A stretch of 64,000 bases of DNA, taken from the NCBI RefSeq assembly GCF_000016665.1, contig NC_009523.1:5579501-5643500 (forward strand), in the 5' to 3' direction. Positions within the stretch are counted from its first letter, which is position 1, and the number at the start of each line of letters is the position of its first letter. The stretch comes from Roseiflexus sp. RS-1. GTDB lineage: Bacteria; Chloroflexota; Chloroflexia; Chloroflexales; Roseiflexaceae. The notes beneath the pieces are model-generated. The model had not been told where the DNA came from. It did no database searches and saw only the letters and a program-made list of their open reading frames with translations. Of this stretch, positions 6,430 to 57,985 are shown piece by piece. Position numbers and translations under genes: made by a program.

Positions 6430-6678
6430 TGGTCTTTGAGAAATAATCCGCCATAGCCCGCGCAGGCAGGCTTCACCTTGCATAGCCGAGGGCGTATGGT
6501 CTTTGAATAAATAATCCGGTATAGCCCGCGCAGGCGGGCTTTGCCCTGGTTAGCCGAGGGCGTATGGTCTTTGAATAAATAATCCGGTATAGCCCGCGCA
6601 GGCGGGCTTTGCCCTGGTTAGCCGAGGGCTTCAGCCCCACGGCTAGCGCAGTATAGCGGATTTAATTTTCAATCTCCA
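6430..6678. repeat. MITE-like array with IS630-type ends
   Basis: Three tandem units begin at 6430, 6497 and 6565, each opening with TGGTCTTTGA followed by an A/T-rich stretch and ATCCG. Each then carries the hairpin AGCCCGCGCAGGCGGGCT (or a variant) and a TAGCCGAGGGC segment. The block closes at 6678 with the inverse form GGATTTAATTTTCAATCTCCA. The opening sequence is nearly the same as the right end of the IS630-type element at 56596-57850, so these look like non-autonomous derivatives of that family. Related arrays lie at 37358-37662, 56498-56595 and 57851-57985. Confidence 0.75.
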
Positions 6679-37357: not shown

Positions 37358-37662
37358 TGGAGATTGAGCATTAAATCCGGTATGCGCCTCGTGCCGTGGG
37401 GCTCATGGAGATTGAGAATTTATTCCGCTCTACCGCGCTAGCCGTGGGGCTGAAGCCCCCGGCTATGCGAGGCGAAGCCCGCCTGCGCGGGCTGTAGCGG
37501 ATTATTTACTCAAAGACCATGAGGTGCGCTGCGCCCCCGCGCCCCCTGTACAGCGCTGCTGCGCCCCCCGTATGCGCTTCGTGCCGTGGGGCTGAAGCCC
37601 CCGGCTATGCGAGGCGAAGCCCGCCTGCGCGGGCTACACCGGATTATTTCTCAAAGACCATC
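37358..37662. repeat. MITE-like array, second copy
   Basis: Contains TGGAGATTGAGCATTAAATC (from about 37358), TGGAGATTGAGAATTTATTC (about 37409), two hairpins AGCCCGCCTGCGCGGGCT, and two inverse ends reading ATTATTT(A)CTCAAAGACCA (to about 37520 and 37662). Same elements as 6430-6678 in the opposite orientation. Accounts for the stretch 37340-37680. Confidence 0.75.
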
Positions 37663-45892: not shown

Positions 45893-46073
45893 TTGATCCC
45901 GCTGTAGAAACGCACTGCCGAAACGCAAAGGGCACAGAGGTTCCATAAAAAACGCTACACGCCACCGAGCGCGATGATTGAGCCCGCGCTGCCTGCCGCC
46001 CCCGCTGCGCGCTACTCTTAAGGATAGGTTCCCTGGGAGAGATGCGTGATTTTCTGCATTCCGGTGCGCGTTT

Positions 46074-46190
46074 GCCCCTCATCCCCCCTGCCCCCTTCTC
46101 CCACAAGGGGAGAAGGGGGAGTTGGGGCGCCCTGATGCCTGAAACGGAAGATGGCACGCGGGGGTTCCCCAAAAACTCACCCCTGTGAGG
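46074..46190. repeat. C-rich/G-rich interspersed repeat
   Basis: CCCCTCATCCCCCCTGCCCC then ACAAGGGGAGAAGGGGGAGT, GATGCCTGAAACGG and AGATGGCACGCGGGGG; extended similarity to 10139-10225. From 45893 to 46073 and 46191 to 46299 I see no gene. Confidence 0.85.
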
Positions 46191-46299
46191 GGGATGTCCC
46201 GCCGTGCGGCAGCCGTGACCTTTGCCGACTGTCGGTCTGGCATGCAGGGGAGTCTGCCGAATCTCGGAATGCCAAAGAGTGTTCGGCTATGGGAGGGCA

Positions 46300-46638
46300 T
46301 CACGCGCTGGCGCGGCACGGCGTGCGGGGGAGCGACTCTCGCGCCGGGTCGCTTGCCCCTGTCCTGCTGTATCCCACCCGCCCCCGATCTCCATCACCGA
46401 GAATCCATAGCAAGGGCGAAATCCCTCTTTCCAAAGCCAGGATGTGCGCAACCGGCAAACGCTTCCAGCAGACGAAAAGAGCCGCAAGCGCACGTATTAC
46501 ATCGCCTCGTACAATCATGTCTCTAACTTGCCTGAAAGTCCAAATAGAAAATTCTTCTTGTGTGGATACGTTAAGGTCTCTTAATCCGTGATAGGAACAG
46601 ATCCTACTCCCTAAATTATTCTGCAAGAGATTTGGCAT
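46300..46638 (-). pseudogene. Truncated small gene at the edge of the AT-rich island
   Basis: ATG 46638 has AAAGGGGG upstream and gives MPNLLQNNLG...ICSYHGLRDLN...FRQVRDMIV. The N-terminal 45 residues correspond to the N-terminal part of the gene at 46887-47339 (CPYHNSKDFN...FTVREYL). After about residue 50 base composition jumps to GC-rich and the frame runs into ordinary intergenic DNA, so the 3' part looks replaced. Confidence 0.5.
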
Positions 46639-46886
46639 GTTTTTCCCCCTTTCTTTGAGATATCTACTCTCATAAACCAGAGAAATTAAATAAATTTAAT
46701 TGATCGCCAAGTGGACCGCAAGAAGCGATCTGGCGCGTGAATAGTTCTACGCTGTATAGAGGAGAATTCGATAGTTAGGAGATTTATTAATGATATGTTT
46801 TCTAGACGGATTTAGACTACAAGAGCGGCACATAGAGTATCTAATATAAGCTATATTATCTTTGGAATACAGATATCGAGTATATT

Positions 46887-47339
46887 TTACCTTAAACCCC
46901 AATATCCTCGATCTAAGCGGTAAAATAGGTCTTCACCTCCCTTATATGCACGAGAGTCTGACGAATGAATGTAGATCGTATAACGTATAATAGCTTGCCA
47001 TGAATCTGGTAGTCTTAGTGTAGTTTCGCAAATGACATAATCATATATCTCATATAGCCGAGCCTTACCGCCAAGAGCAGCAATCACGCTTGCCACATAA
47101 TCTTTCCAGGTGTGAAACTCCATCTCGATCAAGCCTCCTGATCCAACCAATTGCTTGTTCAGGTACTCTCTCACGGTAAATCCTACCCGCTTATACGTAT
47201 TAAAGTCCTTTGAGTTATGATAGGGACATGTAAAGATTTTAATCTGTATGAACGAATTGTTTTGCGGAGATATCGAGCATTTTATCCCCCTTTCGTCGAG
47301 TGATCGACTTTTTGTCCATGTACAAAAAAGCCAGTTCAT
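46887..47339 (-). CDS. Winged-helix protein of restriction-endonuclease-associated type, N-terminus frameshifted
   Basis: The reliable part is 46887-47123 (78 residues): ATG 47123 with AGGAGG ten bases upstream, then HTWKDYVASVIAALGGKARL, YEIYDYV, WQAIIRYTIYIHSSDSRAY and LFYRLDRGYWGLR. The pattern IR-(x)-HSSDS-...DLFY...GxWGLR is the winged-helix module often found in HNH/restriction endonucleases and McrB-like proteins. The upstream frame to 47339 encodes CPYHNSKDFNTY...FTVREYLNKQ, similar to the gene at 46638. Its natural ATG (about 47283, after AAAGGGGG) is out of frame by one base relative to that gene. So either the long protein is a frameshift remnant and only the 78-residue form is made, or the shift regulates it. 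Confidence 0.55.
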   Translation of the reverse strand: MNWLFCTWTKSRSLDERGIKCSISPQNNSFIQIKIFTCPYHNSKDFNTYKRVGFTVREYLNKQLVGSGGLIEMEFHTWKDYVASVIAALGGKARLYEIYDYVICETTLRLPDSWQAIIRYTIYIHSSDSRAYKGGEDLFYRLDRGYWGLR

Positions 47340-47350
47340 TCTGAACCGGC
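47324..47350 (-). terminator. Terminator between leader and coding region in the AT-rich island
   Basis: Minus strand: GCCGGTTCA, loop GAA, TGAACTGGC, TTTTTT, a textbook intrinsic terminator, placed about 40 bp upstream of the AAAGGGGG-ATG at about 47283. It either ends a small RNA made from 47360-47520 or acts as an attenuator. A second T-run (47370-47364) lies just upstream. Confidence 0.7.
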
Positions 47351-47859
47351 ACCTGATAGAGTCAAAAAAACCGTGTTATAAAGATTAATCGCTAAGCGGA
47401 TCGTACAATGATAATATCTGATGTACGAGTAATCCTATGCTGTATAGGGGATAACCAGATAGTAAAAGGAGTTACTAGGAGATACGTCGTCTATAGAGGT
47501 TAAATTGTAGGAGTAATAAACGGGGTGTTCTTGGTTTGTGATCACCCTCTAGTACTATACCACACATTCCAGTGGACCGCAAGCTGTGCTATACACTGCT
47601 GCTTTGGACAGGAATTGTGTCCTCGGTATTATACCATACATTCCAGTGCATCGCAAAGTGCCTGCTACCGCCGCGCTACCCGACGCCGATCAGCGATGTG
47701 GGGCGCGCTGGCGCGGCAAGGAGGCGCAACGCAGCGGCGCTATTTCGTGCAATGCAGCGACGATCAACGGGATCGCGGCGCCTGGAGGGTACGCGGGAGA
47801 GCGAGGGAGGCGCTGGAGTGCAAAACAATTGAACGCCAGGATCGCGCGCCTCGTCCGTC

Positions 47860-48330
47860 GTACGGGCAGGGACGCCCACGCTCCCGGCGCCCACAGCCGC
47901 CATGCGGGCGCGACGCCCGTGCACATGGCACATATCGCGCGTCTTGTCTGTCATGCGGGCGGGGACGCCCGCGCTCCCGGCACCCACAGTCGTCATGCGG
48001 GCGGGGACGCCCGCGCACCCGGCACGCACATTCGCACCGCATCCGTCATGCGGGCGGGGACGCCCGCACACTTGGCACGCACATTCGCACCGAATCCGTC
48101 ATGCGGGCGCGACGCCCGCGCACCTGGCACATATCGCGCGTCTCATTCGTCATGCGGGCGGGGACGCCCGCGCACCCGGCGCCCACAGCCGTCGTGCGGG
48201 CGGGGACGCCCGCGCTCCCGGCGCGCACATTCACACCGCAGCCGTCATGCGGGCGGAACGCCCGCGCACCCGGCGCCCGCAGCCGTCATGCGGGCGCGAC
48301 GCCCGCGCACCTGGCATGCACATCGTGCTC
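47860..48330. repeat. REP-like array of GCGGGCG...CGCCCGC hairpins
   Basis: About ten units, spaced 40-60 bp, each with CATGCGGGCG(GG/C)GACGCCCGCGCAC followed by one of a few short linkers (GGCGCCCACAGCC, GGCACGCACATTCGCACC, GGCACATATCGCGCGTC). Linkers recur, so this is not a CRISPR. Long ORFs on both strands are translated repeats. A GACCGAAATGAATTTCGGTC palindrome follows at 48343-48362. From 48363 to 48817 no gene is visible. Confidence 0.85.
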
Positions 48331-48447: not shown

Positions 48448-48817
48448 GGGAGACATGTCAATTTGAATCGTCGTAACACCATCCGTGTCACCTATTCCAA
48501 TCCACGGTGAGTGCTGAAACAGCAGGCGCGACGCCCACGCATCCGGCACGCGCACGGTTTTCATTTCAGCACTTGCAAATGCAACCAACATGGATACAAT
48601 AGGCGCAAACGCCGGGGAGTTTTCCCTCGCAGCGCAGACCCCTGTTCCTGCATCTGCGCGATCCTCGAGCGGCAGTACGACGCCTGACCGACGCGACCCC
48701 GCGCTCGCGCCCTTAGCGAAAAGCAACGCTTTTTTCTAAACTGCTCACTCAGAGCAGGCGCACCCCTCGTCCGCGAAACTGGCGAACCCTCACACGATGA
48801 AGCCACAGGAGGTTGAT

Positions 48818-57850: not shown

Positions 57851-57985
57851 AAGCCCTCGGCTAGCCAAGGCAAAGCCCGCCTGCGCGGGCTAGAGCGGAA
57901 CAATTACTCAAAGACCATAAGCCCTCGGCTATCCAGGGCAAAGCCTGCCTGCGCGGGCTAGAGCGGAATAATTACTCAAAGACCA
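57851..57985. repeat. MITE-like array right of the IS630-type element
   Basis: Two further units with hairpin AAGCCCGCCTGCGCGGGCT (or AAGCCTGCCTGCG) and inverse ends ATTACTCAAAGACCA. The last end runs into the 3' end of the next gene and supplies its stop codon. Confidence 0.75.

Follow-up and report, generated by a model that had tools for sequence, protein, structure and literature searches.

The chromosome of Roseiflexus sp. RS-1, a single contig of 5.80 Mb, contains a 3-kb junction without recognised genes that is located between two gene blocks, at 45.9-48.8 kb of the window (i.e., of the entire 64,000-nucleotide stretch of DNA analysed here). A preliminary description of this junction reported an AT-rich island carrying two related units, each consisting of a non-coding leader and a small gene, and raised the question of whether these units are the remains of a defence or toxin-type system under RNA control. 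The answer that we find rather probable is that the island holds a decayed, horizontally acquired pair of small genes at a synteny breakpoint, with possible residual expression of a winged helix encoded in one of them.

An AT-rich island at a synteny breakpoint

The locus is delimited by the following two features.

46500..47680, no strand assigned: AT-rich island, flanked on both sides by GC-rich, repeat-rich intergenic debris and recognised from its composition, the lack of a match in congeners, and the synteny breakpoint
46435..46476, plus strand: 42-bp remnant of an R2lox-like ferritin-type gene, 90% identical to a gene elsewhere in the genome, adjoining the cut end of unit A

In 200-bp steps, the GC content at 46.5-47.6 kb is 34 to 41%, against about 60%, which is in full agreement with the proposed AT-rich island and makes this the sole stretch below 42% GC in the window. 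The span originally given for the feature, 46600-47530, was right as to location but not as to its end, since promoter-like sites carry the feature to about 47656. The gene behind the 42-bp remnant is named R2lox-like from a reading of its protein sequence.

No match to the island DNA was detected in five congeners or in the plasmids and phages searched. In the congeners, this region is rearranged: the two flanking genes are found on different contigs and have other neighbours, which makes this a breakpoint and not a clean insertion, and, because these flanks lead into other genes, no clean empty insertion site was found. The island showed neither an integrase or transposase nor terminal repeats, so only its composition and its absence elsewhere point to horizontal transfer.

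Two anciently duplicated units

Both units are encoded on the minus strand and comprise the following elements.

Unit A, 46691..46806, minus strand: conserved upstream block with the inverted repeat TCTAT-ACAGC-GTAGA at 46746-46760 (A/B alignment, consensus fold)
Unit A, 46501..46638, minus strand: gene start MPNLLQNN...CSYHGLRDLN..., which enters GC-rich debris and has no winged helix
Unit B, 47628..47656, minus strand: promoter-like site P1, TTGCGA-17-TATAAT, with an extended TGG before the -10 element (consensus match)
Unit B, 47554..47582, minus strand: promoter-like site P2, TTGCGG-17-TATAGT (read from the sequence)
Unit B, 47383..47495, minus strand: conserved upstream block with the inverted repeat CCTAT-ACAGC-ATAGG at 47434-47448 (A/B alignment, consensus fold)
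Unit B, 47330..47350, minus strand: intrinsic-terminator-like hairpin GCCGGTTCA-GAA-TGAACTGGC-TTTTTT, present in this unit only
Unit B, 47239..47280, minus strand: out-of-frame first open reading frame MLDISAKQFVHTD, after a GGGGG ribosome site
Unit B, 47145..47264, minus strand: CxYH...DxN part, sharing its frame with the winged helix and not with the first ATG
Unit B, 46887..47123, minus strand: intact 78-aa winged-helix open reading frame, with its own Shine-Dalgarno (SD) sequence GGAGG at 47134-47138 and ATG at 47123

Units A and B have in common the upstream block, the GAAAGGGGGA ribosome site, and the CxYH...DxN coding start. Both leader strings quoted in the preliminary description were found, TCTACGCTGTATAGAGGAGA (from 46746) and CCTATGCTGTATAGGGGATA (from 47434). 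Downstream of each on the minus strand come GAAAGGGGGA and an ATG (at 46638 in A and 47280 in B), and the relatedness of the two units is confirmed by their local alignment, which spans about 260 nt of A and 330 nt of B and scores 105, compared with 33±5.5 (maximum, 53) in 500 shuffles. The upstream block alone scores 65 versus 22.7±4.1 when shuffled (z of about 10) and the ribosome-site segment scores 34 versus 17±3.3 (z of about 5); the DNA similarity of the gene starts is weaker (z of about 3.5). A 21-nt core matches only two sites in the window, one in each unit (0.01 expected). At the protein level, the CxYHxxxDxN frames of A and B score 40 (p=0.0008 in residue shuffles) and clearly lead the 36 frame pairs compared, the next scoring 25, and the gene-start protein match is seen only in the frames named at the outset. 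Given the scores for the block, the ribosome site, and the CxYH frame pair, the observation holds: the duplication is not a product of chance, and it is ancient.

Unit A is located downstream of the unit B winged helix in minus-strand order and runs from the block through the ribosome site and the ATG at 46638 into the CxYH part, where it is cut by GC-rich debris; one copy is thus truncated, as had been stated. Unit B runs from P1 and P2 through the block, the terminator hairpin, GGGGG and the ATG at 47280, the CxYH part, and GGAGG and the ATG at 47123 to the winged helix. The frameshift attributed to this second copy is present, but it separates the CxYH frame from the first ATG (47280), which opens a 13-aa peptide; the CxYH part and the winged helix form one open frame. 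Searches of that frame against Pfam, NCBIfam, and PADLOC gave no match.

The CxYH part was not found in plasmids (by tblastn), in PHROGs, or in viral contigs, and a profile search of 400 Chloroflexota genomes returned, besides the query itself, only noise-level hits, many of them broken by stops. No orthologue of either unit was found in the genomes searched.

Promoter/operator region versus RNA leader

P1 and P2 lie in a 31-nt direct repeat (87%); as promoter-like matches were no commoner than in shuffled sequences, both are treated as consensus matches only. The conserved leaders had been taken to suggest RNA or attenuation control, in which case the element would be an attenuator or a small RNA, and transcripts from P1 and P2 would end at 47330 unless a signal opened the terminator. 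Unit B does carry, in order, promoter-like sites, a leader of at least 200 nt, a terminator, and a ribosome site, and the fold of its leader has a z value of -2.2. Its promoter-leader-terminator-gene order resembles that of attenuated leader genes and Type III toxin-antitoxin systems, from which it differs in having no RNA repeats and no toxin family match and in that the layout is not seen in unit A. Moreover, unit A has no terminator and its leader folds like its shuffles (z of +0.16); judging by the structure, the value for unit B is mostly due to its terminator hairpin. The strongest stems of the two leaders are at different places, and the A/B consensus fold retains nothing beyond the 5-bp inverted repeat together with a second, weak hairpin of 5 pairs. 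An RNA element should fold alike in both copies, which A and B do not, so an RNA leader is unsupported. Likewise, Rfam 15 covariance models, searched at two thresholds, gave no family match to the leaders, and a sequence model of the upstream block found no further copies in the RS-1 genome and 29 relatives (one noise-level hit, with an E value of 0.18). RNA control therefore appears very improbable. A leader match in a viral sequence was dismissed as chance; it looks to lie inside phage structural-protein-like coding sequence.

Between A and B, the inverted repeat has one compensatory change and one single-side change, a pattern equally compatible with an operator in DNA and a hairpin in RNA. 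For the upstream block, a promoter/operator region is a better reading than an RNA element, and the inverted repeats of the block may have served as operators.

The winged helix and its relatives

The 78-aa winged helix retains all the residues conserved in its family (W6, GG, Y27, W42, R47, SSD, GGEDLF, and LR). The best tblastn E values were 3e-7 (a PIN_8 fusion) and 8e-7 (an HNH fusion), and the SSD...EDLF block is shared. Plasmid-borne relatives include proteins named HNH endonuclease and a PIN_8 protein encoded beside dndE; N6-methylase proteins carry the winged helix at lower similarity. A 475-aa protein from Ignavibacteriales, 44% identical over this domain, gives a Swt1-like HEPN match alongside weaker ones of HepT/DUF4145-like type. 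The domain is also shared by a Chloroflexota wH-HNH protein, and more distant Chloroflexota wH fusions are PD-(D/E)XK-like in appearance, as read from their sequences. By sequence kinship, the domain is an intact winged helix of a kind fused to restriction-type nucleases, as had been proposed, and its occurrence in HNH, PIN_8, HEPN and, distantly, N6-methylase proteins makes a defence link reasonable.

Proteins with the wH-HNH, PUA-wH-HNH, and PD-(D/E)XK-wH architectures are modification-dependent (type IV) restriction enzymes that include DpnI, HhiV4I, and their relatives (PMC11037411). The RS-1 winged helix has the pattern GGxA...Y...W..xxR...SSD..GxEDLF..G.W.LR in common with plasmid and Chloroflexota HNH fusions but, unlike the type IV enzymes, is in a chain with no nuclease domain. 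Similarly, the PIN_8-wH protein encoded beside dndDE in Pseudoalteromonas and the HEPN-wH protein of Ignavibacteriales carry at their C-terminus a winged helix of this subfamily, and in RS-1 the short CxYH part stands in place of their nuclease domain. In DpnI and several fusion nucleases, it is the winged helix that reads N6-methyladenine (PMC11037411; PMC4117772). In a profile search, DpnI itself was matched only at an E value of 0.27, below many forkhead proteins, and Pfam DpnI_C (PF17726) gave no match. Putative N6-methyladenine reading by the 78-aa winged helix is therefore a lead, not a result.

The AF2 model of the 78-aa form (pLDDT 73) has the three expected helices, with the wing modelled as a helix. 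Foldseek and VIA gave weak matches only, forkhead domains included (best Z, 3.7); the structural matches listed included no solved wH fusion nuclease from bacteria. In the model of the 125-aa form (pLDDT 51), the CxYH part is unstructured, and the model was discarded as unreliable. A scan of about 85,000 species for close relatives, which used exact 8-residue words and so misses distant ones, found one MAG, with the winged helix alone.

The SSD...GxEDLF...LR subfamily recurs in fusions with PIN_8 (beside dndE), HNH, and HEPN domains, yet the domain itself has no Pfam or NCBIfam match, so a model of it would aid annotation.

Origin and present state

In the favoured reading, of a decayed and acquired gene pair, an AT-rich fragment would have entered a repeat-rich junction devoid of genes in a Roseiflexus-type chromosome by horizontal transfer, carrying two anciently duplicated units, each with a small gene behind a strong ribosome site and a promoter/operator-like region that contains an inverted repeat. 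Unit A would then have lost everything past about 45 codons. Unit B, with a terminator hairpin between the upstream promoters and the gene, would have been deprived of the correct start to its reading frame but kept an intact winged helix, of the class by which fusions with restriction-type and other nucleases read the sequence or modification of DNA. The original product may have been a small DNA-binding protein, perhaps acting on its own inverted-repeat operator, or, alternatively, the module that read DNA within the product of a defence or mobile-element gene. The units would now be pseudogenes that have lost their function, and the pair is probably no longer functional, although expression of the 78-aa winged helix may persist.

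Against decay, this winged helix is unbroken, keeps its conserved residues, and has its own SD sequence and ATG, so it may be alive. It would then be a small regulator, made from its own start, that binds the CCTAT-N5-ATAGG repeats upstream of both units, and the retention of the inverted repeat in both, with the two changes noted above, is consistent with such a role. However, no stand-alone homologue of the winged helix was found, the terminator lies upstream of the gene in unit B, and the palindrome is documented by two sequences; a living regulator is, in our estimate, unlikely.

The view of the locus as the decayed core of a defence or toxin-type system is sound as to decay, but "core" goes too far, there being no nuclease or toxin domain. 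For the winged helix to be the leftover DNA-reading end of a restriction or toxin-type gene, a nuclease would have to have been lost. Its family is mainly fused to nucleases and methylases, and it occupies the C-terminus of PIN_8, HEPN, and methylase fusions, as it does in unit B; yet the homologous starts of A and B indicate that what preceded it was the short CxYH part, with no recognisable nuclease, in a frame unmatched in the databases named above. We give this origin only a slim chance. There is about as little reason to expect an undescribed type of mobile or regulatory cassette, in which a promoter/operator block and a CxYH-winged-helix protein would occur in tandem copies, with intact forms in unsampled hot-spring bacteria or viruses.

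The literature on Roseiflexus defence islands yielded nothing specific. The value of the locus itself is modest; it illustrates how, in a GC-rich genome, a small AT-rich remnant may retain an intact DNA-reading domain from the defence-associated winged-helix class after its context has decayed.

Repeats in the window

To the left of the R2lox remnant, in the debris beside the island, there is a dispersed repeat of about 160-180 bp (46015-46195) with more than 60 genomic matches, most of them at 80-91% identity, which is possibly a non-autonomous element. Immediately to the right of the island is an array of the GC-rich palindromic repeat CGGGCGGGGACGCCCGCGC, with about ten copies at 47841-48322, spaced by 41-53 bp, and an eleventh at 48522. 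CRISPR-DR28 repeats occur at three sites in the window (6522-6613, 37471-37636, and 57869-57960).
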